This document shows positions 696 to 60,113 of a DNA stretch of 64,000 bases, in pieces. The translations under genes were made by a program, and so were the position numbers. This DNA is from Deltaproteobacteria bacterium (lineage in GTDB: Bacteria; Desulfobacterota; Binatia; UBA1149; JAJCZL01), in the NCBI GenBank assembly GCA_029262415.1, contig JAJCZL010000067.1, positions 1 to 64,000 of the forward strand, written 5' to 3'. The notes below the pieces were generated by a model. It was not told the origin of the DNA, did no database searches, and saw only the letters and a program-made list of their open reading frames with translations. Every line of letters begins with the position of its first letter. Within the stretch, counting starts at the first letter, position 1.

Positions 696-1916
696 ATGAA
701 TCCGCCCGACATTGATTTCGACCTGACTGACGAGGAGCGCGAAATTCGCCAAACGGTGCGTAAGTTTGCGCTGGAGGTGCTCCGCCCACTCGGCCAGCAG
801 CTCGATCGACTCTCTGCCGACGACGTCATTGCCAGGGAGTCTGTGCTCTGGACGGTCCACACCAAGTGGAATGCGATGGGAATGGGCCTCATGACCTCCG
901 GCGAGTCCGACTACACCCCGACGCAGATCGCGCGGCTCGGTTGCATTATCAATGAGGAGCTCGGGTGGGGTGACTCGGGGCTCGCGATCAGTCTCGGGGC
1001 CGCGGAATTCCCGGCGATGCTCGCACAGGTATCGCAGAACCCCGACGTCATGGCGGCCTTTCCGCCGAGCAAGATCGGCTGCTGGGCGATCACCGAGCCC
1101 GATCACGGCAGCGACGAGTTGGATTTTGGATCTGACCCCAATCGACCCGCACTGCGCAAGCCCAACTGCCTGGCGAAACGAGACGGCGACTATTACGTGC
1201 TTAACGGCCAGAAGGCGGCTTGGGTGTCGAATGGCACAATTGCCGAAACCGCCGCGCTGTATACCGCCGTCGACGACGGCAGCGGCGTCCCCGGCTGCGG
1301 CGTGTTGTTGGTCGATCTCACCGCGCCGGGCGTCTCACGCGGCAAGCCGCTGGAAAAGCTCGGCCAGCGGCCGTTGCCCCAGGGAGAGGTGTTCTTTGAC
1401 GACGTGCGCGTGCCCGCGAGTCATCTCGTGGTCGCGCCCGAGATGTATCCCATAATGGTCGAACTCACGCTGTGTACTGCAAACGGTTTCATGGGCGCCA
1501 CCTTCGTTGGGCTCGCGCGCGCAGCCTACGAGATGGCGCTGGCCTACGCGCATGAGCGCGTACAGGGTGGCGTACCGATCTTCCAGCACCAGAGCGTTAA
1601 AGCGCGGCTCTTTGAGATGTTCCGCAAGATCGAGGCGGCTCGCTCGCTGAACCGTCGTGTGGTGCTTTACAACACCATACACTCTCCGTTCTTCGAGCAA
1701 TCCGGGGCGATGCCGGCAGTGCAGTACGCGATTGCCTCGAAGATCACCTCGACCGAGGTGGCCTTCGAGGTCGCCACCGAGGCACTGCAAATCTTCGGCG
1801 GCAATGGCCTGAGTCGCGAGTACCCGATCGAGAAGTTGCTACGCGATGCCCGTGCATCATTAATCGAGGATGGCTGCAACGAGGTCCTCGCGCTGCACGC
1901 GGCCGAGAGACTGTAG
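696..1916 (+). CDS. Acyl-CoA dehydrogenase family flavoprotein (catalytic Glu replaced by Asp)
   Basis: 406 residues from ATG 696, chosen because GGAGGTG sits six bases upstream; the frame stays open further upstream but overlaps the divergent regulator. The N-terminal helical domain is followed by the ACAD signature (CWAITEPDHGSD) and the C-terminal FAD motif (FGGNGLSREYP). Such enzymes oxidise acyl-CoA at C2-C3 with FAD and pass electrons to ETF. At the usual catalytic-base site, the family pattern IYEGTxxI reads IEDGCNEV here, so Asp replaces Glu. Asp at this site is known in some cyclohexanecarboxyl-CoA-type dehydrogenases; an alicyclic substrate is therefore a guess. It is the first gene of a six-gene operon. 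Confidence 0.9.
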   Translation: MNPPDIDFDLTDEEREIRQTVRKFALEVLRPLGQQLDRLSADDVIARESVLWTVHTKWNAMGMGLMTSGESDYTPTQIARLGCIINEELGWGDSGLAISLGAAEFPAMLAQVSQNPDVMAAFPPSKIGCWAITEPDHGSDELDFGSDPNRPALRKPNCLAKRDGDYYVLNGQKAAWVSNGTIAETAALYTAVDDGSGVPGCGVLLVDLTAPGVSRGKPLEKLGQRPLPQGEVFFDDVRVPASHLVVAPEMYPIMVELTLCTANGFMGATFVGLARAAYEMALAYAHERVQGGVPIFQHQSVKARLFEMFRKIEAARSLNRRVVLYNTIHSPFFEQSGAMPAVQYAIASKITSTEVAFEVATEALQIFGGNGLSREYPIEKLLRDARASLIEDGCNEVLALHAAERL

Positions 1917-1925
1917 GAGGACGAC

Positions 1926-2720
1926 ATGAAACTCAGAGAAGTCATCGGACGCCGAAGGTCGATTCGCTTCGTCAGGCCGTACCAGCAGGTCGAGCCGGAA
2001 AAGATTCAGTGCATGCTCGAGGCGGCACGGATCGCGTCGCACTGGGGCAACGTACAAAGCCTGCGCGCGTTGGTCGTCTTCCGCGATAGCGCGCCGCAGG
2101 AGACGCTCGACGCGATCCAGGCACCGGTGGCCGGCTGGCAGCTGCGCCTCGCGCCGGTCACGATCGTCTGGTACATCCAGCCCGCCGCAGTCGACGAGCA
2201 GAGCGACCGCCTACGCGAACTCATGAGAGCCGGTGCACTGGGCTTCGGCGACATCGACACCAAGCTCAAAGCGCTCGAGGAGCAGCTCATCCCGATCTTC
2301 GACGGGATCAGAGAGTCGTTGAAGCAACCGGGGCTCGGCGAGATCGATTGCGGACAGGGCATCGCGCAGGCGACCTTGATGGCCTACGAGCTGGGTTTGG
2401 GCACGTGCTGCATCGGTACGCCCTACGGCGACCAAATCATGCAGGCCCTGCACATGCCCGAAGGGTGCCGTCTACTGGTACTGCAAACCGTTGGCTATCC
2501 GGCCGAGCACTGGGAGGCAGGCGGCCAGCGCCCACGTCAGCCATTCGAAAAGCTCTTCCAGATGAACTCGTTCGAGACGCCGTTTCCGCGCAGTCAGGCG
2601 GTCGTCGACGAGCTAACCAGGGACGGCGTGTTCACGCGGCCCGCGCCCTTGCCCGACCGCGAGGCGGAACTCGCCTATCTCCAGAAGGCGCTGGATCTCG
2701 AGCCGCCCGGTCTGATCTAG
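1926..2720 (+). CDS. Nitroreductase family FMN oxidoreductase
   Basis: 264 residues, ATG preceded by AGGAGGA and only nine bases after the acyl-CoA dehydrogenase. The N-terminus has the nitroreductase-fold start (VIGRRRSIRFVRPY) in which Arg residues bind FMN phosphate. The Gly-rich segment around residues 150-165 (YELGLGTCCIGTPYG) matches the second FMN-binding region. The family uses FMN and NAD(P)H for diverse reductions, not only of nitro groups. An extra segment of roughly 50 residues around 85-140, and the long C-terminal tail, make it longer than typical 200-220 residue members. It may reduce an enoyl or ring intermediate in the same pathway; that role is inference. Confidence 0.85.
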   Translation: MKLREVIGRRRSIRFVRPYQQVEPEKIQCMLEAARIASHWGNVQSLRALVVFRDSAPQETLDAIQAPVAGWQLRLAPVTIVWYIQPAAVDEQSDRLRELMRAGALGFGDIDTKLKALEEQLIPIFDGIRESLKQPGLGEIDCGQGIAQATLMAYELGLGTCCIGTPYGDQIMQALHMPEGCRLLVLQTVGYPAEHWEAGGQRPRQPFEKLFQMNSFETPFPRSQAVVDELTRDGVFTRPAPLPDREAELAYLQKALDLEPPGLI

Positions 2721-2761
2721 GGTTCTAGGCGCTACACTGACACGCGAGAGGGAGACATAGG

Positions 2762-3994
2762 ATGCAATTAGACGCGTACATCGCCGGGGTCGGCATGACC
2801 CACTTCGGCAAACACCTGGAAACCGGGCTCAAGGCCTTGGGAGCCGAGGCTGTGCAAAAGGCACTCGCCGATGCCGGGATCGGCCAAGACGACCTCGAAG
2901 CCGCCTGGGTCGGAAATGCCGCCGCGGGCCTGGTCACCGGACAGGAATCGATCCGCGGCGAGGTGGTGCTGCGTAGCATCGGCATCGGTAAGATCCCCGT
3001 CGTCAACGTTGAGAACGCCTGTGCGAGCGCATCCACCGCGCTCAATCAGGCTGCCGCGATGGTATCGGCGGGACTCTACGACACAGTGCTCGCCCTCGGC
3101 GTGGAAAAACTCTACCACGCCGACAAACAACGAACGTTCGGCGCGTTCAGCGGTGCGGTCGACGTCGAGGCTCTCGGTGAGATCATGGCATCGCTCAAGC
3201 AGGCCGCCGAACAGGGCGGGGCCACAGCGGCGGCTTCCGGAGCGGGTCAGAAACGATCGATGTTCATGGACATCTACGCAATGGCGGCACGCGCGCACAT
3301 GGAGCGCTACGGCACCACCGTTGAGCAGTTCGCCGGCATCTCGGCGAAGAACTCCTTCCACGGTAGCATGAACCCGCGCGCCCAATTTCGCGAGCAACTC
3401 TCCGTAGAGGACGTGCTGCGCGCGCCGATGATCGCCGAGCCGCTCACGCGACCGATGTGCTCACCGGTCGGTGACGGAGCCGCGGCGGTCGTCATCGTAA
3501 GCGAGCGCAAAGCAAGGGAACTCGGGCTCGAACGGCCGGTGCGCGTTGCCGCAAGCGTGCTGCGGTCGGGGTGGGACCACGGCCCTGATGAAGACGGGCT
3601 CTCGGAGACGTGCGCACAGCAGGCCTACGAGGAGGCCGGCGTGGGTCCCGAAGATCTCAGCGTGGTCGAGTTGCACGATGCGTCGGCTCCGGCCGAGCTC
3701 ATCGCATACGCGTCGCTCGGCCTGTGTGCGAAGGGTGAAGGCGGAAAGCTCGTCGAGGACGGATCGACCCGCTTGGGCGGACGCACGCCGGTAAACACCT
3801 CGGGCGGATTGCTGCGCAAGGGCCATCCGGTCGGCGCCACCGGCATCGCGCAGATCGTCGAACTGACCGAGCAGCTACAGGGACGCTCCGGCGACCGCCA
3901 GGTCGAGGGCGCGAAGGTGGGATTGGCGCACAACGGGGGCGGCAACATCGGCATCGATGCTGCCGCCCTGTGCGTCACCATCCTCACACGCTAG
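2762..3994 (+). CDS. SCP2-type thiolase family protein
   Basis: 410 residues with the thiolase fold. The nucleophilic Cys is at about residue 87 (NACASAS). The central motif VELHDASAPAE carries the His/Asp-type motif of lipid-transfer (SCP2) thiolases, and GHPVGATG supplies the active-site His near residue 355. The C-terminal active-site Cys motif of classical biosynthetic thiolases (CxG) is not evident, as in other SCP2-like members. Expected reaction: thiolytic cleavage of a 3-ketoacyl-CoA, or the reverse condensation. It lies in the operon between the nitroreductase and a CoA ligase. Some SCP2-like thiolases act with a DUF35 partner protein; none is visible here. Confidence 0.88.
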   Translation: MQLDAYIAGVGMTHFGKHLETGLKALGAEAVQKALADAGIGQDDLEAAWVGNAAAGLVTGQESIRGEVVLRSIGIGKIPVVNVENACASASTALNQAAAMVSAGLYDTVLALGVEKLYHADKQRTFGAFSGAVDVEALGEIMASLKQAAEQGGATAAASGAGQKRSMFMDIYAMAARAHMERYGTTVEQFAGISAKNSFHGSMNPRAQFREQLSVEDVLRAPMIAEPLTRPMCSPVGDGAAAVVIVSERKARELGLERPVRVAASVLRSGWDHGPDEDGLSETCAQQAYEEAGVGPEDLSVVELHDASAPAELIAYASLGLCAKGEGGKLVEDGSTRLGGRTPVNTSGGLLRKGHPVGATGIAQIVELTEQLQGRSGDRQVEGAKVGLAHNGGGNIGIDAAALCVTILTR

Positions 3995-43835: not shown

Positions 43836-44258
43836 TTAATGCGCGCAGTCGGCGAGTGACCCGATCCAAACCTCACCGCCTTCGAAGTATTCTTTTTTCC
43901 ATATCGGGGCCACGTGTTTGAGTTCGTCGATCATGAACTGACAGGCGGGGAGCGCATCTGCGCGATGGGCCGACGAAACCGCGATCGCAACGCTGGTCTC
44001 TCCAAGGGGGACCTCGCCGATTCGATGGAGAACGGCGATCTTCTTAACTTCCCACTTGCCTCGTGCAATCTCAGCGATCTTCTCCAACTGCGCTACCGCC
44101 ATCTCCGGGTAGGCTTCGTACTCCAGCTTGAGAACCCTACGGCCCCGGTTGGTGTCGCGGGTGACACCGGCGAATGTGGCAATCGCACCTACACCGGATT
44201 CGGCTACCGCCTCGGACACCTCATCGAGGGTAATCTTCCTGTCTACGACGTCGAACAC
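43836..44258 (-). CDS. moaE: Molybdopterin synthase large subunit MoaE
   Basis: 140 residues. Conserved features are GAIATFAGVTRDTNRGRRV, LEYEAYPEMAVAQL, HRIGEVPLGETSVAIAVSS and the active-site Lys region APIWKKEYFEGGEVWI. MoaE with MoaD converts cyclic pyranopterin monophosphate to molybdopterin. Directly follows moaD, one base apart. Confidence 0.96.
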   Translation of the reverse strand: MFDVVDRKITLDEVSEAVAESGVGAIATFAGVTRDTNRGRRVLKLEYEAYPEMAVAQLEKIAEIARGKWEVKKIAVLHRIGEVPLGETSVAIAVSSAHRADALPACQFMIDELKHVAPIWKKEYFEGGEVWIGSLADCAH

Positions 44259-44259
44259 T

Positions 44260-44505
44260 TCAACCTCCGCTTACCGGCGGTATGACCGCCACTTCGTCAT
44301 TCTCGGAAAGAGGGTACGAGGAATCGACGTACTCGCGGTTAACGGCAACGCGCACCGTGCCTGCCCCCACGTTATCGTTGCCTAGTCTCACGGTGAGTCC
44401 GCACTGGAAGTCACCGACTGTTGCGCCATCCTCGAGTTCGTAAACTTCGGATCCGACACCGAGTCGCTCGCGCACGATTCCAAAATACAGAACGCGCACT
44501 TTCAC
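44260..44505 (-). CDS. moaD: Molybdopterin synthase sulfur carrier MoaD
   Basis: 81 residues of a ubiquitin-like fold protein (MKVRVLYFGIVRERLGV at the start) that ends in the thiocarboxylate-accepting Gly-Gly (DEVAVIPPVSGG). Overlaps the moaB stop by four bases (ATGA). Partner of MoaE. Confidence 0.94.
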   Translation of the reverse strand: MKVRVLYFGIVRERLGVGSEVYELEDGATVGDFQCGLTVRLGNDNVGAGTVRVAVNREYVDSSYPLSENDEVAVIPPVSGG

Positions 44506-45068
44506 ACGTCCTCCTCGCCCGCTTCGCCGTCGGCGCGATCGACGTTGCGCGGCCGGCTCGCAAATGCGGGATCGGCGAGCGCAACCAAATGCCCGAGCTC
44601 CGGGACAATCAACTCACGCATCGCCAGACGGCAGGCCGCAGGCGAACCCGGTACGGAGAACACAGCGGTGTTGCCGACCAGCCCCGCGATAGCTCGCGAG
44701 AGCATCGCCGCCGGTCCGATCTCCCTATAGCTGAGCGCGCGGAAGAGTTCGCCAAAGCCGTCGAGCCGCTTGGTCAGAACACCGGACACCGCTTCGTAGG
44801 TATTGTCGCGCGTCCCAATCCCAGTGCCACCGTTCAAGACCACAGCCGCGCAATGCTCGTTAGCAGCCAGCGCGCGCACAACATCGGCGACGTGCCCGGG
44901 ATCGTCAGCGACGATCTCGTAGGCAACCACCCGGTGGCCGCCCGCTTCCAGGGCCTCGCAGACAACGCCCCCAGAGGCGTCATCGGCCTCCGTTCTGGTA
45001 TCGGACACGGTAACCACCGCACATGGAACCGCGCGTGCGCCTGCGCGCTTGTGCTCATCAACAGCCAT
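44502..45068 (-). CDS. moaB: Molybdenum cofactor biosynthesis protein MoaB
   Basis: 188 residues with the MoaB/Mog fold: CAVVTVSDTRTEADDASGG at the start, AVVLNGGTGIGTRDNTYEAV holding the molybdopterin-binding GGTGxxxRD motif, and VFSVPGSPAACRLAM. Adenylates molybdopterin in lineages lacking MogA. Heads the moaB-moaD-moaE operon and is divergent from miaB. Confidence 0.93.
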   Translation of the reverse strand: MAVDEHKRAGARAVPCAVVTVSDTRTEADDASGGVVCEALEAGGHRVVAYEIVADDPGHVADVVRALAANEHCAAVVLNGGTGIGTRDNTYEAVSGVLTKRLDGFGELFRALSYREIGPAAMLSRAIAGLVGNTAVFSVPGSPAACRLAMRELIVPELGHLVALADPAFASRPRNVDRADGEAGEEDV

Positions 45069-45131
45069 CCGAGGATTTCTCGCACAGCGCCGCAGTTTCC
45101 GCCAACCGGCCGCCCCAGCTATAGGTCGCGG

Positions 45132-46460
45132 ATGCCGGCCCTAGACGGTCTGCCCGGGCAAAGCCGGACCGACCGCACCATCTACATCGAGACTTACGGC
45201 TGCCAGATGAACGTGGCCGACAGCGAGCTTATCGCAGGCGTGCTTGCGCGCGGCGGCTACGCATCGGTCGCGAACCCCGAGCATGCCGATATAATCCTCC
45301 TCAATACCTGCGCGATCCGCGAGAACGCGGAGCAGCGTGTGGCCCAGCGGGTGCGCCACTTCATCTCGGCGCGCGAAAACAACAGCCGCGTGCGTATCGG
45401 ACTGGCCGGATGCATGGCCCAGCATCATCGCGACCGTTTGTTGAACGCCATCCCAGGCTTGGATTTCGTCGTCGGTCCCGACGGCTACCGTCGTCTTGCG
45501 CAACTCCTCGACGCCGAAGAGCCGGGCACCGACGTGCGCCTTGACCGCTCAGAGACCTATCAAGACATAGCCCCGGTGCGTGCCTCGGGCGTACGCGCTT
45601 GGCTGACGATCATGCGCGGCTGCAACCGGTTCTGCACGTTCTGCGTTGTTCCGTACGTACGCGGCCGCGAACGCAGCCTACCCGCAGACGTCCTTATCAA
45701 AGAAGCCCACTCGATTGCCGCGCACGGCTTTCGCGAGATTGTACTGCTCGGCCAAACCGTCAACGCCTACAACGACGGCACCACCGACTTCGGAGCACTG
45801 CTGCGTATGATGTCGGACATCGACGGCATCGACCGCGTCCGCTTCACTTCGCCCCACCCCGCCGATATGGCCGATTCGGCGATCGAAGCGATGCGCGACT
45901 GCGGCAAGGTCTCTCCGTATCTGCACCTTCCGCTGCAGAGCGGCTCCGACAGAATACTCGCGGCGATGGACCGTGGACACACCATCGATGAATACATGCG
46001 CCTGGTTGAGCGGCTACGGATTGAAATTCCCGACATCGCACTCTCTACCGACATCATCGTCGGCTATCCCGGTGAAACAGAAGCCGACTTTGCGGCGACT
46101 GCAGACTTGATGGACGAAGTCGGTTACGACCACGCCTTCATGTTCAAGTACTCTCGCCGCGAGGGTACACGTGCCGAAAAGGTTAAGGAGACAGTCAGCG
46201 AACAAGACAAGAACGCACGCCTGCAACGGCTGATCGCCGAACAACTCACGCGCGCAACAGCGATCAATCAGAAGCGTATCGGCCACGCCACCGAAGTTCT
46301 CGCCGAGTTCCCAGCTAGAAAGCAGAAGGGCTGGTTGTCCGGCAAGGACCCGCAGTTTAAAACCGTGGTGTTCGAACCTAAATCGACCGACGTCGGGCGC
46401 TTAGTTACGGTAATGATTGAGTCGGCGGGCCCGCAAACCCTGCTCGGCCGCGAAGTCTGA
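45132..46460 (+). CDS. miaB: tRNA-2-methylthio-N6-dimethylallyladenosine synthase MiaB
   Basis: 442 residues from ATG 45132, chosen because the first MTTase domain begins at about residue 15; the frame is open to 44421 but covers moaB. The auxiliary Fe-S cluster Cys residues lie in YGCQMNVADSE, LLNTCAIRENAE and GLAGCMAQ. The radical-SAM motif is RGCNRFCTFCVVPYVRGRE. The C-terminal TRAM domain ends LVTVMIESAGPQTLLG. MiaB adds the methylthio group to i6A37 of tRNA. Confidence 0.97.
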   Translation: MPALDGLPGQSRTDRTIYIETYGCQMNVADSELIAGVLARGGYASVANPEHADIILLNTCAIRENAEQRVAQRVRHFISARENNSRVRIGLAGCMAQHHRDRLLNAIPGLDFVVGPDGYRRLAQLLDAEEPGTDVRLDRSETYQDIAPVRASGVRAWLTIMRGCNRFCTFCVVPYVRGRERSLPADVLIKEAHSIAAHGFREIVLLGQTVNAYNDGTTDFGALLRMMSDIDGIDRVRFTSPHPADMADSAIEAMRDCGKVSPYLHLPLQSGSDRILAAMDRGHTIDEYMRLVERLRIEIPDIALSTDIIVGYPGETEADFAATADLMDEVGYDHAFMFKYSRREGTRAEKVKETVSEQDKNARLQRLIAEQLTRATAINQKRIGHATEVLAEFPARKQKGWLSGKDPQFKTVVFEPKSTDVGRLVTVMIESAGPQTLLGREV

Positions 46461-46531
46461 AATACCTCGCGGCCGACTGAGCCGGACGACGCGCCGGACT
46501 GCCGGGTCTGCGCCGGCCCGGTCGGCGAAAG

Positions 46532-47218
46532 TCAGGCCGAAGGTAGAACGCGGCTGAAAAACTCGCCCAGCCGCTCTGCGAACCAATCAGGGTCTTCTAG
46601 GTAGATTCCGTGTCCACGACCGGGGACAATCTCGATTTCGCTGCCGCGTATCGCACGCGAAAGAATCACCGATCCACCTGCGCCCAAAAAATCCTTGTCG
46701 CCAACGATGATGATGGTCGGTCGTACCACCTCGTGCATACGCGCGGTCAACGGATCATCGTTCAGCGTTGCCATCGCCTCGGGTAGATAAGCGAAACCGA
46801 GTGCGTCGGGCACCGGTGTCGAGCCGGGCCGAACCCCCATAGCCTGCAACGCTCCTTCGACGCCTTCCACGCGCGCGCGCGTGGCGGTTTGTCGATACCA
46901 AGTCGCGGTGTTTTCGTTGCACTCGCTCGCAGTACCGATAAGGCCAAGCGCGGTTACGCGTTCGGGGTGCTCAACTACCGCGTGCATCGCGATCACGCCG
47001 CCGGCCGAGTGTCCAACCACTGCGGCGCTCTCGATCTCGAGTGCGTCCAACAGAGAGATTAGATCGGCAGCGAGATCGCTTCTCGTGCACGGCGCGTGCA
47101 CGGCGTCGCTGCCGCCATGCGAGCGCAGATCGTAGCGAAGCACGCGGAAGCGGTCGCTCAGGCGTTCAGCCTGAGCCGCCCAATTGTCCTTGGAAGCGCC
47201 GAGCCCGTGTATGAACAC
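46532..47218 (-). CDS. Alpha/beta hydrolase
   Basis: At least 228 residues, given here from the first ordinary start codon, GTG 47218. The fold core is clear: oxyanion HGLGASKDNW, nucleophile elbow VVGHSAGGVIAMH with the catalytic Ser, and the His in PGRGHGIYLEDPDW. The GTG cuts the first beta strand. In the same frame upstream, 24 more codons (…SAGLTNYDLAGPERAPAI) are hydrolase-like and begin at a CTG (47290) that overlaps the beta-barrel gene's stop as CTGA. The true protein is therefore probably 252 residues with a CTG start. Confidence 0.85.
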   Translation of the reverse strand: MFIHGLGASKDNWAAQAERLSDRFRVLRYDLRSHGGSDAVHAPCTRSDLAADLISLLDALEIESAAVVGHSAGGVIAMHAVVEHPERVTALGLIGTASECNENTATWYRQTATRARVEGVEGALQAMGVRPGSTPVPDALGFAYLPEAMATLNDDPLTARMHEVVRPTIIIVGDKDFLGAGGSVILSRAIRGSEIEIVPGRGHGIYLEDPDWFAERLGEFFSRVLPSA

Positions 47219-47286
47219 GATTGCCGGGGCTCGCTCTGGCCCGGCTAAATCGTAGTTTGTCAGCCCTGCGCTGGTTCGAATGCGGC

Positions 47287-47871
47287 TCAGTCGAACCGCC
47301 AGAGGAAGGAGATCGAGGGAACCCAGATGTTAGCTTTCGAATCCGAAACATCCGCTACGTAAAACGGCGACTTGATGACAACGCCCCAGCTTTCGCCGAG
47401 CATCCACTGGAAACCGGCGCCAAAGTAGAAAGCGTCGCTGTTACCGTCAACGGTAGCCGGAACTTCGATGTCGTTAACGGGCAACCCGTCTATGTGAGAG
47501 TAGCCACCCATCAAAAAGACACGATTCGCCTGCTCGCGCTTTTCGCTGAGGATATAGTATCGAAGACCGGCGCTGTAGTGCTTGATTTTCTCCAAAGGGC
47601 GCGCCGCGCCGAAGACAATATCGGTCTCGTTCCGCGCCTCACCGTAAACAGCGCTGAGTTCGAGATCCCAGCGGTTACCAAAGCCAACCACCACACCGCC
47701 GACATAAGAAGTACCAGTGTCGATGTCGGAATCGTTGAGCCCGATATATGCACCGGCACCGATCTCAACATCGACGTTGGTAACGCCCGCGAAGGCAGGC
47801 GCGGCTTGGACAAAAATCAGTGCGGCGGCTGCGAGCGCACCCGCAAAAAATGAAGTAGATCGGTGTCCCAT
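47287..47871 (-). CDS. Outer-membrane beta-barrel protein
   Basis: 194 residues from ATG 47871, with GAGAGGGGA upstream; the frame is open to 47898. A signal peptide ending in APAFA is followed by alternating polar/hydrophobic strands of an eight-stranded barrel, with ends such as YVGGVVVGFGNRWDLELSAVYG and the C-terminal SFLWRFD, whose last aromatic-x residue pattern fits BAM recognition. Similar in layout to small OmpW/OmpA-like or YfaZ-like barrels. No specific function. Confidence 0.8.
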   Translation of the reverse strand: MGHRSTSFFAGALAAAALIFVQAAPAFAGVTNVDVEIGAGAYIGLNDSDIDTGTSYVGGVVVGFGNRWDLELSAVYGEARNETDIVFGAARPLEKIKHYSAGLRYYILSEKREQANRVFLMGGYSHIDGLPVNDIEVPATVDGNSDAFYFGAGFQWMLGESWGVVIKSPFYVADVSDSKANIWVPSISFLWRFD

Positions 47872-47921
47872 AGATGTCCCCTCTCGAGTGAAAGTCACGC
47901 GGACATACCATGCGCGCAGGC

Positions 47922-48473
47922 TCAGTCCAATAGGGTGACCGGAACCTCGACGTAGACGTGCTCGGCCTCCGACCAGGAAAAAATCCTAAACTCCCGTGGC
48001 TCCGCCTCGACCACCGAAATCACCAGCTGGACCGCCTCGGGGTAGGTCGGCTCCCCAAATGGGGTGGCTGCAGCCTGATCGGTGTCCGAGAAGTACGCCC
48101 CGTGGTCTGGATGAGAGTGATAGATGGCCAACAACTTGTGGTCCCCAGAGGCGCGCAACTCCTCGAGTTGGTCGATTTCGGCCTGATCCCAGCAGTACGC
48201 GGTCTTAGCCGTGCGGGTGAAGTGCTCAGGGAGCTTGGCGTGCATCTCCTCCTGGATGTTGGCCATCCGGCGTACCGCCGGTCGCCCGTCGGGCATCCGG
48301 ACCAGGACACCACAAGCCTCATTCGGGTAGGCTGCGACGGCGTGCTCACGAATCTCCTCGAGATTTGTCTCGCTCAACGTGAAAGGGTCAGTAATCACTG
48401 TCATTTGGTCGCTAGAGGCACCGGCCCCGTTTCCCCATTTGAGACGTGCGAACAGGGCAAAAATATTCGGCAT
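47922..48473 (-). CDS. JAMM/MPN-domain metallopeptidase (M67-like)
   Basis: 183 residues from ATG 48473 (AAGGG site upstream); ATG 48404 is an alternative. The JAMM zinc site is complete: Glu in NEACGVLV, then HSHPDHGAYFSDTD (H-x-H with downstream Ser and Asp). Prokaryotic JAMM enzymes act in cysteine or thiocarboxylate metabolism or remove ubiquitin-like proteins. MoaD at 44260 is a ubiquitin-like carrier nearby, but a direct link is speculative. Confidence 0.88.
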   Translation of the reverse strand: MPNIFALFARLKWGNGAGASSDQMTVITDPFTLSETNLEEIREHAVAAYPNEACGVLVRMPDGRPAVRRMANIQEEMHAKLPEHFTRTAKTAYCWDQAEIDQLEELRASGDHKLLAIYHSHPDHGAYFSDTDQAAATPFGEPTYPEAVQLVISVVEAEPREFRIFSWSEAEHVYVEVPVTLLD

Positions 48474-48593: not shown

Positions 48594-50621
48594 ATGGAGT
48601 CCACCCCCGCAACGAAGATTGAAAAGTTCCTCAAGCCCAAGGCTGTATCGTCGCGCAAGCTCGCGCGCGACCCTGCGGGCCGTCTGGTCATGGCTGAGGA
48701 AAGCGCCCTTGACATGGACCGGATCCGCGATGCCGGCTTAACCGTGATGGAACTCGGGCGACGGGTTCGGGTCTACAACTCGGACATGACCAAGCAGGTC
48801 GCCTCCTACATCGTCCCCGCCGAGGTCACCGAGATCCAAGGCCGTGCGACAAGGGCGGCCGAAGGCGCAAAGATCCAGATCGGCCGCCTGATCGCCCGTG
48901 AGGGCCTTTGGGTCCGCCACAACCCGGGACTGCGCGAGGTCGGCATCAACGACCGCGGCGACGTGGTACTGCGCCAAGACGCAGCAACCGCCGAGGATCC
49001 GACGGTCGGCCCAACGCTGAACTCCTACAACACCACGCAGTCTACGCTTACTTCGCGCGTGGTCGCTCGCATCGACAAGAAGACCCACGACCGCGACGTA
49101 AAAGAAGCGCGGGCGTGGCTCGAAGCCATGAATGTGCTTAACGACACCAAGACGTTGCGCACCCGTTTCTTCAGTGCCGGCGTCGCCTGCGAGCACCGCG
49201 GCAACGTACCGATGTTGTACAAGACCACGCAGGTCAACTTCTTCCCGATCAACGATCCACTTTCACTCGAACTCGCAAGCGCACTCGAAGCGCGCTTCGA
49301 AGACCTCAAGCGTCCGGTCCCCATGGTGCGAGTGATTAGCGTGCTTGGCATTCCGCCCAACGAACGCGCGTACAAAGAGTTCGTCGCGCAGCTCAAGAAG
49401 AAGAAGCAGAACCCGATCACGCTCGGCCTCCCCAGCCGCTTGCGCGACTCGCAATTCTTCGATGGGTCGTCCAAGTCGATCCCCCCGTCGTGCTTCATTT
49501 ACGCGTGCACGCTGGATGAGATCGGCGATTCAATTTACGTGATCACGATCAACACCGATTACCACGGCGAGGTCAAAAGTCGCGGCATCAACTCGGGCGT
49601 TGCCGCCGTGATGTCAAACGTCGAAGTGCTGTCTGTGCACGCCTCCTGCGGCATTCTCAATGCCGAGGGCTCGACGACAGTGTTCATGGGTTCCGGCGAC
49701 GTGGGCAAGTCGAAGGCGGTAACGTTCTGGGCCGAACGCAACCACGACCGCCGCCGCAGTGAGTTGCTCCGCCGTTACAAGATCGAAAAGAAGGACGACG
49801 AGAAAGCCGCAAAGGAAGCGACACAAGGTGTCGGCTTCGTTTGCCAAGACGACTGGGTCGAGATCGTACCGTCCGGCAACACAGTATGGGACTCGTGGCC
49901 GGCCGAGCGCTTCTTCTACATGCGCAGCCGTGACCTCCCGAGCCGCGACCTGATCCTGTCGGAGAACGAACCGATTATCGAGAACGCAACCGCCGACTAC
50001 GGCGCCTCGGGCGATCCGGCCGTGATCGGCCGCACCACGCACGATGACCCCCACGAACGCCTGCTCTACGATCCCGACTGGGACAACTACTACGCCGACC
50101 GTGACGTCCACCGTATCTCCTGCCTGGTCGTGTTGGAAAAAGACCGTGAGCTCGATTACTTGGTGAGAAGACTCTCGGCCAAGGACGCTCTCGACATGAT
50201 CATGGCCGGAGGTGTCGGCGATGGAGCGACCGAACCCTTCTACAACGATTACACCGACGTATCCGGCCTACTGATGAGCCAGGGCGTAGTGGGCGAACGC
50301 TTGCTGGGCGCCTACAAGGCGGCCAAAGCCGGCGACGTCGCCGCACTGATGAACGGCGACGAGGCGCTCGGACGCGTAGTACTCGACCGCCTGAATGCGC
50401 AGGTCGCGGTCTGGCAGCACTTCCTGAACGACGTTCCCTGCTACGTGGTTAACACCAGTGGCGGCGGTGACGTGCTCCAGGATCTGAACTGGTACGTTTC
50501 CGACAACCCCGAGTTCCTCAAGCCGGGCAAGGAAAAGTCGGTCGATGAGTTCAAGGCGCTCATGGAGAAAACCTACGGGGTCGCCTACGACAACAAGGGC
50601 GACTGGACCCACGACTCCTAG
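48594..50621 (+). CDS. PEPCK-like P-loop protein of unknown function
   Basis: 675 residues, not similar enough to a standard phosphoenolpyruvate carboxykinase to be named as such. Around residue 366 a kinase-1a-type loop (FMGSGDVGKSKAV) follows VLSVHASCGILNAEGSTT, the arrangement seen in ATP-type PEPCK (strand, then FxGLSGTGKTTL). Downstream, ISCLVVLEKDRELDYLVRRL and FYNDYTDVSGLLMSQ resemble the later PEPCK regions. The standard loop Thr is replaced by Ser-Lys, and the N-terminal 250 residues look unrelated. It could be an HPr-kinase-fold or PEPCK-fold enzyme with a new substrate. Confidence 0.65.
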   Translation: MESTPATKIEKFLKPKAVSSRKLARDPAGRLVMAEESALDMDRIRDAGLTVMELGRRVRVYNSDMTKQVASYIVPAEVTEIQGRATRAAEGAKIQIGRLIAREGLWVRHNPGLREVGINDRGDVVLRQDAATAEDPTVGPTLNSYNTTQSTLTSRVVARIDKKTHDRDVKEARAWLEAMNVLNDTKTLRTRFFSAGVACEHRGNVPMLYKTTQVNFFPINDPLSLELASALEARFEDLKRPVPMVRVISVLGIPPNERAYKEFVAQLKKKKQNPITLGLPSRLRDSQFFDGSSKSIPPSCFIYACTLDEIGDSIYVITINTDYHGEVKSRGINSGVAAVMSNVEVLSVHASCGILNAEGSTTVFMGSGDVGKSKAVTFWAERNHDRRRSELLRRYKIEKKDDEKAAKEATQGVGFVCQDDWVEIVPSGNTVWDSWPAERFFYMRSRDLPSRDLILSENEPIIENATADYGASGDPAVIGRTTHDDPHERLLYDPDWDNYYADRDVHRISCLVVLEKDRELDYLVRRLSAKDALDMIMAGGVGDGATEPFYNDYTDVSGLLMSQGVVGERLLGAYKAAKAGDVAALMNGDEALGRVVLDRLNAQVAVWQHFLNDVPCYVVNTSGGGDVLQDLNWYVSDNPEFLKPGKEKSVDEFKALMEKTYGVAYDNKGDWTHDS

Positions 50622-51598
50622 TTACGTCCAAACGATGAATCGCTGCCCGTGCGCAGCGCGGGCAGCGATTCGCCGACGACGAGATAGACCACCCCCCCAC
50701 ACGCCGCGGCGACCATCAAAACCACCAGCCAGAGCAGACCGATGGTCAAAGCGAGTTCGCGTGGCACCCCACCTTGTTCGAAAAACCACACGTAGCCGAG
50801 TTCGCGTACACCAAGTCCGGCTACGCTGATCGGCACGGCGCTGAGCACACTCACGAGCGGGTGGGCGACAAAGTAGTACGCCCAAGGCAAATCGACACCT
50901 GCCGCTTCGCCGATGACGATCAACGCTGCGACCTGCCAGCAATGAAAAACGATAGACAGCGCCGCCGCTCGTACCAGCAGAACCCGGTCGGTCCACAGCG
51001 GCGACAAATCCGAGCCGATCAGTCGCCTTAACCGGTTCTCTGGGCCGGTCAGCGCAGCGACCATCTTCGGGGCGAGCCACCAGGCCCCTACAAGTGCGAG
51101 CCCAAGAGCGACGGTTGTGGATATAAGCAGCGTGGGCAAGCCGAAACTCCCGAACACTGCGATCGCAGTGGCTGCGACGAGCACCAGCAACGCCAGCCCG
51201 ATCAGCCGGTCGAACAGCACGGTGTTTAGCGCCACCGTTCGGCTGCCGTCGCGACCGGCCAGCAGGAGGGCGCGAACTAGATCGCCGCCGAGCGTCGAAG
51301 GCCCGAACAGGTTGAAGAACATCCCGATGAAGTAGTAGCGCGCGATCGCGCCGGCACCCCGCACCATCCCCAGCGCATCGGCGATCAGCTTCCAGCGGTA
51401 GGCGGTGATCAGCTGACCAAACAGGTACATAGCGGCTGCGGCGGCAACCGGCCAGGGCCGCACCTCAGCGAGCGCCTGGGCCACGGCGGCCCCATCGAGG
51501 GGGCGGACCAGTATCCACGCCGCCGCCACGGTAATAGCGAATTTAAACCCGCGTAGGACCGTCGAAGACCGTGCAGAGGCCGTCCCACGATTACTCAT
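50618..51598 (-). CDS. Flippase-like UPF0104/LPG-synthase-TM family protein
   Basis: 326 residues, eight or nine membrane segments. The family hallmarks are AYRWKLIADALG, FFNLFGPSTLGGDLVRALLL and VPISVAGLGVRELGYVWFF. This family includes the membrane part of lysylphosphatidylglycerol synthase and AglD-like proteins, thought to flip lipids or sugars. It overlaps the convergent PEPCK-like gene by four bases. Confidence 0.85.
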   Translation of the reverse strand: MSNRGTASARSSTVLRGFKFAITVAAAWILVRPLDGAAVAQALAEVRPWPVAAAAAMYLFGQLITAYRWKLIADALGMVRGAGAIARYYFIGMFFNLFGPSTLGGDLVRALLLAGRDGSRTVALNTVLFDRLIGLALLVLVAATAIAVFGSFGLPTLLISTTVALGLALVGAWWLAPKMVAALTGPENRLRRLIGSDLSPLWTDRVLLVRAAALSIVFHCWQVAALIVIGEAAGVDLPWAYYFVAHPLVSVLSAVPISVAGLGVRELGYVWFFEQGGVPRELALTIGLLWLVVLMVAAACGGVVYLVVGESLPALRTGSDSSFGRN

Positions 51599-54746: not shown

Positions 54747-56108
54747 ATGTCCGACGCATCACTTACACTTTTCTGTACCTCCTGCGGTTCCGCCCTCCCG
54801 GGTGAGGCCGCGTTCTGCCCCGCTTGCGGGGCGCCTCTCACGCAAACCGGCCAATCGGCTCGCGCAGTTCCATCTCACGCCGGTGTCGCTGCCACGGGCA
54901 CTACAGTGGCCTCCGGGAGCACTGCAGCGAGACCTCGCTCAGGCGGCTCCCCGGCCGTCGCGTTAGCGGTCTTCGCCGCCCTTGCGGCGCTCGGAGGCAT
55001 CGCCATGTACGCGACCGGCAGCCGGGTAGAGCCGCCACGTGCGGTTTCGGGAAGCCCTGGCGGCAACGGTGCCGTGGCCAATGCGCAGAACCCGTCCGCG
55101 GTGGAAGTGCCTGCGGAACTGCGCGCAGAGATTGAGCGTGCGCTCGCAGACCTCCAAAGCAAAGCCGACGCCGCCCCCGAGGACGAGCAAGCGTGGACGC
55201 TTCTTGCGCGTGCTCGCTACCGTGCCGCGCAACTCGACCCCGCCGCCTATCTGGCCGACACTGAAAAGACGTTAGGCCGGTTGGCCGAAATCGCTCCGGA
55301 CAACCCAGAGGCCATCCGCATGTACGGAAACCTCGCGTACACGCGCGGTGGGTTCGCAAAAGCGGAGAAACACTATCGCCGTTTCCTGGAGCTGCAACCG
55401 AACGAGCCCAACGTTGGCACCGACCTCGCTTCGGTATTGCTGTTCCAGGGTCAAGCTGAGGAGGCGAAGGCTGCATTCCGAAGCGTGCTCGCCAAGCACC
55501 CGGACTTCATGCAGGCGCACTTTCACTTGGGAGTCGCACTGCACACCGAAGGCGAGCACGAAGAGGCGGAAACGCATCTCGCCAAAGCCTTCGAGCTTGC
55601 GCCGGCAGACGTAAAGCAACGCATCGAACCCTTCCTGCAAGCGGCACGTAACCGTGTGCCACACGCGACTGCAGTTGCTGCACCCGTGGACCGAAATCAT
55701 GCGCCTGCCGCAACAAAGCGCGCCGGCAGCACTCCTGCGGTCCCACCGTCGGGTGGTAACGCGGCCGGCGCCGCCCAGCCGAGCAACGCCTCCTCTGAGT
55801 TCCAAAAAGGTGTAGACCGGGATCTGCTCGGGCACCAGGTTTTCGGACCTAGGATCGCATCGATCGACTGGACCGGCGCTTCGGCGGCCCGTGTAATGTT
55901 GGCCGATTTCCCGATGGATGAGATGCCGCCGGTTGTGCGCAACAAGTTCAAATCGACAATCAACGAAAAACTCGCCCGCCGTGCCGAAGAAGAAGGAATC
56001 GATGAGAATATCGATCTGGTGCTCGTCGACAACGCCACCGGCACGATCATGGACCACTTAGACGGCGAAGAATGGGTCGGAGCGTTCGACGAAAGTAACT
56101 ATGAGTAG
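54747..56108 (+). CDS. Zinc-ribbon, single-pass membrane, TPR protein
   Basis: 453 residues. Residues 10-27 are a zinc ribbon (CTSC, then CPAC); residues 68-90 are one membrane helix; residues 140-310 hold TPR units (for example [17 protein letters not shown] and [20 protein letters not shown]). The C-terminal domain of about 110 residues ([36 protein letters not shown]) has no named family. The stop overlaps the AAA+ start by eight bases, so it is co-translated with the AAA+/VWA pair. Likely a membrane adaptor for them (inference). Confidence 0.82.
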
Positions 56109-56949
56109 TAAGCCCGGCAACAAAGCGGCCGACCAGAGAGCCGCGCACAGTGCGCCGCCCTACTATTTACCGATCGGCGATGAAATCGAGGTCTTCGAGT
56201 GCGCTTACCGTCTGTCGCTGCCGGTGCTTCTCAAGGGACCGACCGGCTGCGGCAAAACACGTTTCGTCGAATACATGTCGTGGCGCCTACTCGGTGGGCG
56301 CGCCAAACAGCATGGCAACCTGATCACGGTAGCCTGTAACGAAGACCTCACCGGCAGCGATCTGGTCGGGCGCTACCTGATTCACGGTGACGAAACTGTC
56401 TGGATGGACGGCCCGCTCACACAGGCCGTACGCAACGGCGCGATCTGCTATCTCGACGAGATTGTCGAAGCGCGTAAAGACACCATGGTCTTGATCCACC
56501 CATTGACCGACCACAGGCGGATCCTCCCGATCGATAAGCTCGGCGAAACCATACGTGCGCACGACGATTTCATGCTCGTGGTGTCCTACAACCCCGGCTA
56601 CCAATCGGTCCTGAAAGACTTGAAACCTTCTACACGCCAGCGCTTCGTAACACTCGAGTTCGGCTACCCGGCACGCGAACAAGAAGCGGAGATCGTAGCG
56701 CACGAAAGTGGCTTGGACCTCGAGCGTTCTGTCGACCTTGCCCATCTCGGTGAACGTGTGCGTGAGTTAAGATCGGGAGGTCTCGAAGAAGGGGTAAGCA
56801 CGCGGCTGCTCATCTACGCCGCGCAGCTGATTGTCGAGGGCCTGTCCCCGCGGCGGGCTTGCGAGGCGACTATGGTACGCGGTCTGACCGACGATCCGCA
56901 GACCCAAGCCGCCATCTCCGAATTGGTCACCGCGCTTTTCGCCGAGTGA
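56101..56949 (+). CDS. CbbQ/NirQ/NorQ-type AAA+ ATPase
   Basis: 282 residues. Walker [11 protein letters not shown] at about 46-53, Walker [11 protein letters not shown] at about 115-122, and the sensor and arginine-finger parts in [14 protein letters not shown]. The C-terminal CbbQ domain ([17 protein letters not shown]) matches the family. These MoxR-group ATPases work with a VWA partner to remodel metalloenzymes such as RuBisCO or NO reductase. Its stop codon overlaps the start of the giant VWA gene, as in known pairs. Confidence 0.93.
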
Positions 56950-59900
56950 TGTCCGCTGCGCGGAGTTGGGTCGAAAGCCGCCACTTGCGCGAGAGCACCG
57001 GCGGCCGCGCCGCACTTGAACGGTGCGATACCCTCGAAGCCTCCATCCGCGAGCACATCCTCTTAAACGGTGATGAGATCGCCGGCACCTCGGTTGCGGT
57101 CGCACACAGCTATTTCGTAACCGCAGTAGCCGTCGCGGCAGCCGATCCCAGTTCGCTCGCGGATTGGGAAAGCGACGGTCTACGCCTGTTCGCAGCAGGA
57201 GCCGGCGGACGCGACGCCGCGCAGGGATACTACCGTCTCGACGCGAGGATCGCTGCATGTGAACGCGGACTGCGCGCGCAGTGGATCGAAGCGACGATCG
57301 ACATCTCCGAGACCAGTAGGCGCTTAGGAACACAGTTTTTGGAAACCACCGGGGCGTTTCTCTGCACACCCCCCTACCCATCGACAGAGCGTTTGCGGGC
57401 GTGGCACCACGGCACGCTCGAGGCCCTCGGTACAGCGAAATGGCGCGGCGAGTTTGCAGCTGGAGCCCTGGTCGACTCGTGTACAGCGCTAATGCACACC
57501 CTCGAAGCCGACGATGTGCAGACGTGGACGCGTTTTCTGTGTGCGATCGCCGCCGCAACTAAGGCCGGCGCTCTGCCCGAAGTCCCGGAGGATCTCGCGC
57601 AACTCACACCTGAGCTCGCTGGAAGGGCGGTTCTCGCGGTAGCCTGCCACGCTGACAAATTCCCGTTATCGGCACCCGCACTGTTGGCCACATTGCCACA
57701 CGCCTTGGCCGCGCTGCCCTACGATGCCGCACTAGCGCTGGCCGACACAGTGACCAAGGTCGCGACCGCCGAGGGTCTCAGCGACGCGCTCGCGCTGGTT
57801 CCGGCTGTCACCCATGGGAACTCCGAAGAAGATGTCTTGCACTTGTTTGGGTTGCTCGAACGCATTGGGGTCGCTTTCCCCGAAGGCGCGGCCTCCTATC
57901 TGCGAACGATGGCACGGGCCTTCGATGAGGGCGGGCGCGACGGGACCTCAATGTGGGTCGAGAAAGGGATTGAGCTCGGCCGACTCAACCGCGAGGCGGG
58001 CATCGGACACCTACAACTGCATACGCGCAACGCGCACAAGATCTTACGAATGCATACCACGGCCGTCTCTTTTGACGAGGTCGAGGGACTGATGCAGCGC
58101 TTTCTGATCATGATGTCGCGGCGCTCGTTTCAACTCATTCCGACACCGGGCATTTGGTTTCGTCCGCCGCTCGCAGCGCCCGAGGATACCAGCCTGCGGC
58201 TGCCCGAGCGCATCGACCTGTTCGAGACCTCCGAAGACAACCAAGCACTTTACAAGCTGACCCTCGCGCACATCGCCGGACGTTTCGAGTACGGAACCTA
58301 CAACCTGTCGCGAGCCGAGCTCGTCGCAGAAGGCCTCCTCGGGGATGATCCAGACGCCGAGTCCGACGATGTCATTGGGGTAATCTCATCGTTTCCGAAT
58401 CCGATGCTCGCTGCCGCTTTGTTTGTGCTGCTAGAGGGCGTGCGAATCGACGCTTGCTTAGAACGTGAGTTTGCGGGTTTGGCTGGCGACTTCGCGCGGC
58501 TCGGCAGGTACTACTCCGACAATCCCCCACCCGCCGCCGCCGACCGTCCAGCCGAACAACTGATCGAGGCCCTGTTCATGATGTCGGTCGGACGTCGCGC
58601 ACCCGAGACACTCGAACCGCGCCTTAGACGCGCCGGTGCTGCCCTTGCACCCGCTATGGCAGGACTGCGTGCACCCGAAGCGACGGTCTATGACAGCGCC
58701 CGACTGCTGCTGCGCTACTACGGGTCGCTACAACTCGCAGAGATCCGGGCAGCCGCTCTTGGCGGCGAAGACTCGGAGCTATCGATCGAGATCGGTGGCG
58801 CAACCGTGATCGATCCGTTCGAACATCTCGAGGCACAAAGCGGTGAGCCGGGCGCTATGGTGAGCGATGGTGGCGGCAACTTACTGCGTGAAATCGATGC
58901 AGACCTCGCCGAGCAAGAGACGACACTCGAGCTGGACGGCAGCCCCGAGGCACCCGCAACCGGTGGGGTTCCGCTTACACCCGAGGAGATCAAAGCGCTG
59001 ATAGAATCGGGCGCCGACCTGCGCATCACTTCGGAACATGCCCTAGAGGCCCAGCAAAGCCTCGGCCTCTACATCACTGATTTACTCGGCAAGCTTCCCG
59101 CCTCTGCGATTGAAGAACTGCGGCGTAGCCTCGAACAAGACAACGCCTACGCCGCGGCAACGTTCTTGATCGACCGCCCGGCTGAGAAGATTCACAACTA
59201 CGACGAGTGGGACTACCGAATCGGCGATTACCGGCGCCACTGGTGCAAAGTAGCGGAACACGATATCAGCGGCGACTCCGGCGAATACTTCAACCGGGTG
59301 CTCGCCAGCTCCGGCGACCTGATCGCGAGCCTCAAACGAGAGTTCCAGCGCCTGAAACCTGAGCAGTACCGCAAAGTACGAGGCATGGAGCACGGTGAAG
59401 AATTGGACCTGGCCGCGTTGGTTGACGCTCACGCCGATAGGCGTTCGCGCAAACCTCCTAGCGAACGGCTATACTTGGCGCGGCGTCGAGAAGAGCGCGA
59501 CATCGCCACACTGTTCTTGCTCGACATGAGCGCGTCTACCGACGAACCGCTCCCCGAATCGAAACAAGACGAAGGCGGGGAACGCCGCGTGATCGAGGTA
59601 CTCAAAGACACACTCGTCGTCATGTCCGAGGTAACCGAAGAGATCGGCGACGGCTACGCCCTCTACGGTTTCTCTGGACACGGACGCGAAGGGGTAGAGT
59701 ACTTTCACCTGAAAAGTTTCTCCGAGAGGCTCAGTGCAAAAGTAAAAGCCCGTCTGGGCGGTCTGACACCGAAACGATCAACACGTATGGGAGCCGCGCT
59801 TCGTCATTCCGGGGCAAAGCTCGCGCACGTAGCCGCGCGTTCAAAATACTTGGTCCTGTTGAGCGACGGTTTCCCGCAAGACTTCGACTACGGCGAAGAC

Positions 59901-60113
59901 CGCCGCTCTAACGTTCACGGGATTCAAGACACCATGAAGGCTCTACAGGAACTCGAAGGCCAAGGCGTGCGCACCTTCTGCATCACCGTCGATCCTGCAG
60001 GCCACGATTACCTTCGCGATATGTGTCAAGAGTCGCGCTACGCGGTCATCGACGACGTGGCCTCACTGCCGGAACAACTGCCACGGATCTATCAATCGTT
60101 GACACGTTCTTGA
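56949..60113 (+). CDS. CbbO/NorD-type VWA protein, very large
   Basis: 1054 residues from ATG 56949, overlapping the AAA+ stop (TGATG). The C-terminal 200 residues form a von Willebrand A domain with a MIDAS motif DMSAST at about 857 and downstream AALRHSGAKLAHVAARSKYL. The N-terminal 800 residues are helical and HEAT-like. Known CbbO/NorD proteins are usually 600-800 residues, so this one has an unusually long N-terminus. It should bind the AAA+ ring and recruit a client through the VWA site. No RuBisCO, NO-reductase or other obvious client gene lies in the window. Confidence 0.9.
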   Translation: MSAARSWVESRHLRESTGGRAALERCDTLEASIREHILLNGDEIAGTSVAVAHSYFVTAVAVAAADPSSLADWESDGLRLFAAGAGGRDAAQGYYRLDARIAACERGLRAQWIEATIDISETSRRLGTQFLETTGAFLCTPPYPSTERLRAWHHGTLEALGTAKWRGEFAAGALVDSCTALMHTLEADDVQTWTRFLCAIAAATKAGALPEVPEDLAQLTPELAGRAVLAVACHADKFPLSAPALLATLPHALAALPYDAALALADTVTKVATAEGLSDALALVPAVTHGNSEEDVLHLFGLLERIGVAFPEGAASYLRTMARAFDEGGRDGTSMWVEKGIELGRLNREAGIGHLQLHTRNAHKILRMHTTAVSFDEVEGLMQRFLIMMSRRSFQLIPTPGIWFRPPLAAPEDTSLRLPERIDLFETSEDNQALYKLTLAHIAGRFEYGTYNLSRAELVAEGLLGDDPDAESDDVIGVISSFPNPMLAAALFVLLEGVRIDACLEREFAGLAGDFARLGRYYSDNPPPAAADRPAEQLIEALFMMSVGRRAPETLEPRLRRAGAALAPAMAGLRAPEATVYDSARLLLRYYGSLQLAEIRAAALGGEDSELSIEIGGATVIDPFEHLEAQSGEPGAMVSDGGGNLLREIDADLAEQETTLELDGSPEAPATGGVPLTPEEIKALIESGADLRITSEHALEAQQSLGLYITDLLGKLPASAIEELRRSLEQDNAYAAATFLIDRPAEKIHNYDEWDYRIGDYRRHWCKVAEHDISGDSGEYFNRVLASSGDLIASLKREFQRLKPEQYRKVRGMEHGEELDLAALVDAHADRRSRKPPSERLYLARRREERDIATLFLLDMSASTDEPLPESKQDEGGERRVIEVLKDTLVVMSEVTEEIGDGYALYGFSGHGREGVEYFHLKSFSERLSAKVKARLGGLTPKRSTRMGAALRHSGAKLAHVAARSKYLVLLSDGFPQDFDYGEDRRSNVHGIQDTMKALQELEGQGVRTFCITVDPAGHDYLRDMCQESRYAVIDDVASLPEQLPRIYQSLTRS

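Follow-up and report, generated by a model that had tools for sequence, protein, structure and literature searches.

A conserved and clade-restricted branch of the phosphoenolpyruvate carboxykinase (PEPCK) superfamily exists in the Binatia, and by the tests made it is neither the cell's PEPCK nor an HPr kinase. Sequence comparison gives good support to a distant homology between the core of the protein and ATP-type PEPCK. Because the same bacteria also carry a normal PEPCK, the PEPCK-like protein probably acts on a substrate other than that of PEPCK. As far as we have seen, the family is confined to the Binatia.

The gene, its distribution and its neighbourhood

The gene P0001 lies in the window, a 64,000-nucleotide stretch of contig JAJCZL010000067.1, in a host genome assembly of 83 contigs and 3.9 Mb. 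Its reading frame is intact over 675 codons (Table 1). The initial annotation had described a 675-residue protein with the P-loop GSGDVGKSK in a PEPCK context, and the coordinates are as it gave them; the PEPCK-like surroundings of the loop include TDYHGEVKSRG, SVHAS and QDD. The long, unrelated N-terminus that it reported is also borne out: a Pfam search of the first ~125 residues gave no match, they have no counterpart in PEPCK, and the part before residue ~127 falls outside most VIA-align matches. The DapD model TIGR03536 (NCBIfam) weakly matches window positions 48690-48935 (residues 33-114; 12.7 bits against a cut-off of 518, E 0.042), a match that recurs in one orthologue at E 0.0088, far under the cut-off.

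Table 1. Positions in the window of the PEPCK-like gene, its notable residues and its immediate neighbours.
Feature	Position	Strand	Basis and remarks
JAMM (Prok-JAB) peptidase gene, divergent left neighbour	47922..48473	-	Pfam
PEPCK-like protein gene P0001	48594..50621	+	ATG 48594, stop 50619-50621, 675 aa; Pfam, hhalign
N-terminal extension, ~residues 1-125	48594..48968	+	Without recognised family; also in the orthologues complete there
T321-DYHGEVKSR-G331, equivalent of PEPCK Y207..K212,K213	49554..49586	+	K328 and R330 invariant in 14/14; residue 329 Ser (12), Asn (1), Cys (1)
H349, equivalent of PEPCK metal ligand His232, within SVHAS (347-351)	49638..49640	+	14/14, alignment
Walker A / P-loop G366-S-G-D-V-G-K-S373	49689..49712	+	G-x4-GK-[ST] in 14/14
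D419-D420, equivalent of PEPCK Asp268-Asp269, within QDD (418-420)	49848..49853	+	D420 in 14/14; residue 419 Asp 12, Glu 2
R444, at the place of PEPCK Lys288	49923..49925	+	14/14
R489, possible equivalent of PEPCK Arg333	50058..50060	+	14/14; one residue off in alignments
Flippase-like gene (LPG_synthase_TM), convergent right neighbour	50618..51598	-	Pfam; overlaps the 3' end by 4 bases

Orthologues occur in 12 of the 13 genomes of the order and in 2 of the 135 other genomes of the class. The one order genome without it is G002, an assembly of 87% completeness from which the neighbouring JAMM gene is missing too. The two orthologues from outside the order (G459 and G461, of another family) are 43–44% identical over their full length. 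The class profile search matched 15 of 148 genomes at E ≤0.1, namely the 12 of the order, G459, G461 and G426; the weak match in G426 (E 0.03) was judged spurious because blastp found no similarity between its frame and P0001. The gene is absent from G460, whose genus mates are G459 and G461, and this looks like a loss. In a phylum sample, a narrower 5-row profile that lacked the two distant orthologues matched 5 of 395 genomes, all within the order. A pattern scan of 84,980 species, which reaches close relatives only, returned four loci, all in order genomes (G001, G005, G007 and G011), and at a sensitivity likewise limited to close relatives, plasmids, phages and viral contigs yielded no relative. 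Our search of openly licensed papers found no literature on this family.

The protein is under purifying selection, with dN/dS values of 0.04-0.17 in seven orthologue pairs (Nei-Gojobori). The window protein and its L002 orthologue gave 0.114, at a dS of 1.37 that is near saturation; the six other pairs gave 0.039, 0.104, 0.116, 0.125, 0.172 and 0.103.

All 13 order genomes encode a GTP-PEPCK that scores over its cut-off (fragmented in two of them), the host genome included, where it lies elsewhere and where PEPCK_ATP has no further match. Since, in addition, the residue at the place of PEPCK Lys213 is replaced in all 14 orthologues, the window protein is not the cell's PEPCK, in agreement with the initial annotation, which had called it non-standard.

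To describe the neighbourhood we used a home-made gene caller over ~10 kb on each side of 12 order loci; the JAMM, flippase, TPR and DsbA families were named by Pfam from the window copies and all others by eye. An α/β-hydrolase-like, a JAMM, a flippase-like and a DsbA-like gene were each present at 11 of these loci, and a TPR, a MoxR-like and a VWA-like gene at 10 each. Pfam confirmed the JAMM and flippase-like neighbours that had been proposed from the sequence. The accompanying statement that the gene stands alone is true of its direction of transcription, because both neighbours are on the opposite strand, but large parts of the neighbourhood are conserved in the order. The arrangement varies in detail. 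In family f3, six loci have a ketopantoate-reductase-like gene between the JAMM and PEPCK-like genes. In the L018 stretch the caller found no flippase-like gene, the one in L019 lies ~5.6 kb downstream, and the TPR, MoxR and VWA genes are absent from both stretches. In the window, the zinc-ribbon TPR (Pfam), MoxR/CbbQ-like AAA+ and large VWA-like genes (the latter two by eye) are consecutive at 54747-60113, as they are at 10 of 12 loci. MoaE-like, MoaD-like and Mog-like genes lie within a few kb of the JAMM gene (window 43836-48473), their families occurring at 8, 9 and 7 of the 12 loci, again by eye.

The JAMM gene is near the PEPCK-like gene at all 13 loci with sequence there, comprising 11 of 11 in the order (L027 ends inside the gene) and both of the others. 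It adjoins the gene in G459 and is ~6 kb away in G461; no other window neighbour was found in those two stretches. The co-occurrence is not specific, because 132 of the 148 genomes of the class have a JAMM gene; G460 has one without a PEPCK-like gene. On these grounds we set aside the JAMM peptidase as a functional partner and take its link to the PEPCK-like gene as no more than suggestive. Two genes that are adjacent in G460 at L127:1-1363, by eye a peptidase-like and a ferritin-like one, flank the PEPCK-like gene in one genus mate each.

Relation to ATP-type PEPCK

The Pfam model PEPCK_ATP (PF01293) aligns with residues 316-372 of the window protein at E 9.9e-4 and 18.4 bits, below its curated cut-off of 26.5 bits. 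Order genome G003 attains 26.5 bits solely when neighbours join its frame. The model matches all 12 orthologues of our 12-row alignment (best E 9e-8, E limit 10), and a profile of these 12 searched against PDB sequences gave two matches, both ATP-PEPCKs (E 0.02 and 0.042). With the single window sequence, phmmer returned unrelated PDB chains only, at E 0.25 or worse.

In profile–profile comparison against 11 canonical ATP-PEPCKs, hhalign scored the 12-row family at 65.5 (probability 93.9), with a maximum of 25.8 over 100 column shuffles, and a 14-row family that includes G459 and G461 at 64.5 (probability 93.4, 57 columns), with a maximum of 29.2 over 60 shuffles. Against merged PEPCK-like sets, the 12-row family scored 78.2 (probability 96.1) and the 14-row family 82.3 (probability 96.4, E 1.2e-9, 180 columns), the latter with a maximum of 31.9 over 60 shuffles. 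Six unrelated neighbour families used as controls reached at most 30.7 with the 12-row family, the highest being the P-loop AAA+ family, which scored 32.6 against the 14-row family. By contrast, the 14-row family scored no better than such controls against the L066-68 group (30.7), the L069 group (22.3) and two GTP-PEPCKs (19.7). Because the hhalign scores exceed those of the shuffles and of the AAA+, HPr kinase and GTP-PEPCK comparisons, we assign the relation to ATP-type PEPCK specifically. Statistical support for it begins at about residue 316; the region from ~130 to 315 aligns plausibly without support of its own.

Two features of the procedure affect how these scores are read. For the shuffles, columns with more than half gaps were removed, and 100 shuffles each were also run for an early PEPCK alignment and for the L070 trio described below; the highest score then was 31.9. 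When gap-rich columns were kept, as they were initially, 3 of 40 shuffles scored 134-137 against 59.9 for the real comparison, presumably owing to the gap columns, in an alignment that also contained the out-of-frame row described next. In addition, the early PEPCK alignment, the larger alignment with 24 PEPCK-like rows and the second structure model include one out-of-frame ORF as a row (L077:1054-2937:+; true frame L077:1040-2830:+). The 11-sequence canonical set behind the scores of 65.5 and 64.5 is free of it.

The closest comparison in length is with the divergent PEPCK subfamily NF006821, represented by L070, which scores over that model's cut-off, and by L073 (63% identity with L070) and L074 (82%). 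This trio gave the longest pairwise hhalign stretch (181 columns and a score of 58.8 with the 14-row family, 208 columns with the 12-row family), and the QDD, ENxxxD and RLTPEQ regions are common to both sides. Unlike the window family, NF006821 members keep the KK pair, Lys288 and GLSGTGKT, and identity is ~15%. Such long alignments bear on whether the likeness to PEPCK is simply convergence around Walker A in an unrelated P-loop protein. In favour of convergence, the alignment with canonical PEPCK covers a short block of 57-70 columns, and structure prediction from the orthologues alone did not yield the PEPCK fold. However, similarity also runs upstream, through YxGExK and H-x-S, and downstream: alignments with the L070 trio and with the merged sets span 180-232 columns and outscore both the shuffles and the P-loop controls. 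We regard convergence as very improbable.

A closer relation to HPr kinase, with which the initial annotation proposed a comparison, is not supported. The HPr kinase and PEPCK folds are related at superfamily level, and the QDDW motif of the window protein resembles the ADD of HPr kinase, which could suggest a protein kinase/phosphorylase of that kind. Only the P-loop and the DD are shared with the HPr kinase C-terminal domain (PF07475). Against 14 HPr kinase proteins, however, the 14-row family aligned over only 18 columns at the P-loop with a score of 33.7 (its own 60 shuffles reach 24.5), close to the AAA+ control, and Hpr_kinase_C has no match in the host genome at E 0.001. Elsewhere in the order, G003 has a single Hpr_kinase_C match below the cut-off (E 9.8e-5), on a different contig from its PEPCK-like gene. 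We consider an HPr-kinase-like activity far-fetched.

Two further groups share elements of the core. The HAS..GASGSGKSE block of DUF4914 (PF16260; L065) aligns with the window family, in a comparison with one sequence that scored 37.6 over 67 columns, hardly above controls; the DUF4914 profile has no match in the host genome at E 0.001. As in the PEPCK core, the L065 protein (1492-3399, reverse strand) has an HAS..GASGSGKSE..TDD pattern together with a Lys in the column of Lys213, and DUF4914 may belong to the PEPCK superfamily. A divergent PEPCK-like group of 562-618 residues from the same phylum (L066:1955-3808, L067:5883-7724 and L068:1042-2727, all forward strand) has GLSGxGKSS loops and an HDDA motif and scores at most 50 bits on PEPCK_ATP.

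Structure prediction gave no confident model. From the 12 orthologue rows alone, AlphaFold2 gave a mean pLDDT of 48.6 and a pTM of 0.40, and this model had no PDB match at E ≤0.001 (the top-ranked chain, at E 0.35, was unrelated, and PEPCK chains first appeared at E 0.67). When 24 PEPCK-like rows were added (36 rows in all, one of them out of frame), mean pLDDT rose to 54.2 and pTM to 0.57; ten-residue pLDDT means were at least 65 in 341-440, 501-540 and 601-675 and mostly low elsewhere. All 50 Foldseek matches listed for the PEPCK-assisted model were PEPCKs (best 1j3b, E 1.6e-8; TM by query length 0.23-0.32), and VIA-align, run on these matches, superposed it on 1ayl with a Z of 14.8 and an rmsd of 4.4 over 326 residues at 15% identity. 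Because 24 PEPCK-like rows were supplied, the agreement is partly circular. The window sequence is compatible with a PEPCK fold in a model that is not independent of those rows.

Active-site residues

Conservation was counted over 14 orthologues (12 of the order plus G459 and G461), and equivalences are given in E. coli PEPCK numbering. In E. coli ATP-PEPCK, Lys213, His232 and Asp269 are the Mn2+ ligands, and Arg65 and Arg333 are substrate residues. The window family shares the YxGExK, HxS, Walker A and DD core motifs with ATP-PEPCK (PF01293, TIGR00224). It differs in lacking a Lys213 equivalent and a recognisable R65 loop, in having Arg in place of Lys288, in its variable P-loop, in an N-terminus longer by ~125 residues, and in an insertion that precedes the YxGExK strand. 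Metal sites of PEPCK are among the matters treated in PMC4370629.

The expected conservation of PEPCK residues turned out to be divided. H349, D420 and K328 (K212) are kept in 14 of 14 orthologues, as are Y323 (Y207) and G371-K372 (K254), and at residue 373, the T255 place, 10 orthologues have Thr and 4 have Ser. The Lys213 and Lys288 places, in contrast, are changed in all 14. If residue 329 is an insertion, the Lys213 place is taken by Arg330; otherwise it is taken by the Ser, Asn or Cys at 329. Among the other PEPCK-like rows, 23 of 24 have Lys in this column, the exception being the out-of-frame L077 row. We found no Arg65 equivalent, in an N-terminal lobe whose alignment is unreliable.

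The P-loop is likewise altered. The canonical loop G-L-S-G-T-G-K-T, invariant in the 11 canonical ATP-PEPCKs, occurs in none of the 14 orthologues. The Ser-Lys loop pointed out in the initial annotation is present in the window protein, but it is not a trait of the family: orthologue loops include GTSGAGKTE and GGDGSGKTR, with GPTGTGKTT in both distant orthologues. Mean identity at the x positions (367-370 and 374) is 0.43 against 0.76 over all columns, and 13% of columns are equally or more variable. Judged from sequence, such variability may mean weaker nucleotide binding.

Candidate reaction and its meaning

Considering which residues are kept and which are lost, the interpretation we favour, at about even chances, is an ATP-dependent phosphotransferase of PEPCK fold with an altered metal site and a small-carboxylate substrate, a far-diverged branch of ATP-PEPCK that does not run the oxaloacetate/PEP reaction. 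The nucleotide pocket would be retained through G-x4-GK-[ST] and D420, and the PEPCK metal and substrate pocket partly retained through Y323, K328, H349 and possibly R489. At metal site 1, the lysine has given way to Arg330 with residue 329 inserted, or to Ser/Asn/Cys329, and Lys288 to Arg. Such a protein would bind Mg-ATP (or another NTP) and transfer the γ-phosphate; the acceptor would be a small molecule, with a carboxylate bound through the conserved Arg, Lys and Tyr residues as the likeliest candidate. A kinase with a new substrate, as the initial annotation suggested, is therefore still a plausible reading. A small-carboxylate phosphotransferase is favoured because the Arg/Lys/Tyr/His/Asp set appears to be kept and the Mn2+ lysine lost. 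Given the change in the site through which Mn2+ holds oxaloacetate, the protein would not run the oxaloacetate/PEP reaction.

Two alternatives interpret the same residues differently. A pseudoenzyme, that is, an NTP-binding sensor or scaffold without phosphotransfer, would fit the altered metal site 1 and P-loop x positions that are poorly conserved next to the invariant loop of canonical ATP-PEPCKs. Yet the Walker A Gly-Lys-Ser/Thr, D420, H349, K328 and R489 are invariant and not obviously needed by a pure scaffold, and we consider a pseudoenzyme unlikely, if worth keeping in mind. More doubtful still is a diverged yet working PEPCK that operates, for example, in the carboxylating direction beside GTP-PEPCK. 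In its favour, the protein retains the core motifs, equivalents of His232 and Asp269, and possibly one of Arg333. Against this, the Lys213 equivalent is missing, Lys288 is Arg throughout, the window protein stays below the Pfam cut-off, and every order genome already has its GTP-PEPCK.

The phosphotransferase interpretation has a more specific form, which we hold tentatively, at somewhat less than even chances: a PEPCK-fold enzyme with a rebuilt metal site 1 (Lys to Arg plus an inserted residue) that transfers phosphate to a new small acid, or to some other new class of substrate, in a clade-specific Binatia pathway.

A genome paper refers to the Binatia as yet-uncultured. Our search of openly licensed papers found no PEPCK-family branch with another reaction. 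To our knowledge, PEPCKs are treated as a one-reaction family, and we know of no branch of it whose reaction differs from that of PEPCK. If the protein is a new small-acid kinase, it would be such a branch. With its changed Mn2+ site, a conserved branch that coexists with a normal PEPCK allows one to test directly which residues are responsible for PEPCK chemistry, and it may hint at a step of metabolism particular to the Binatia.
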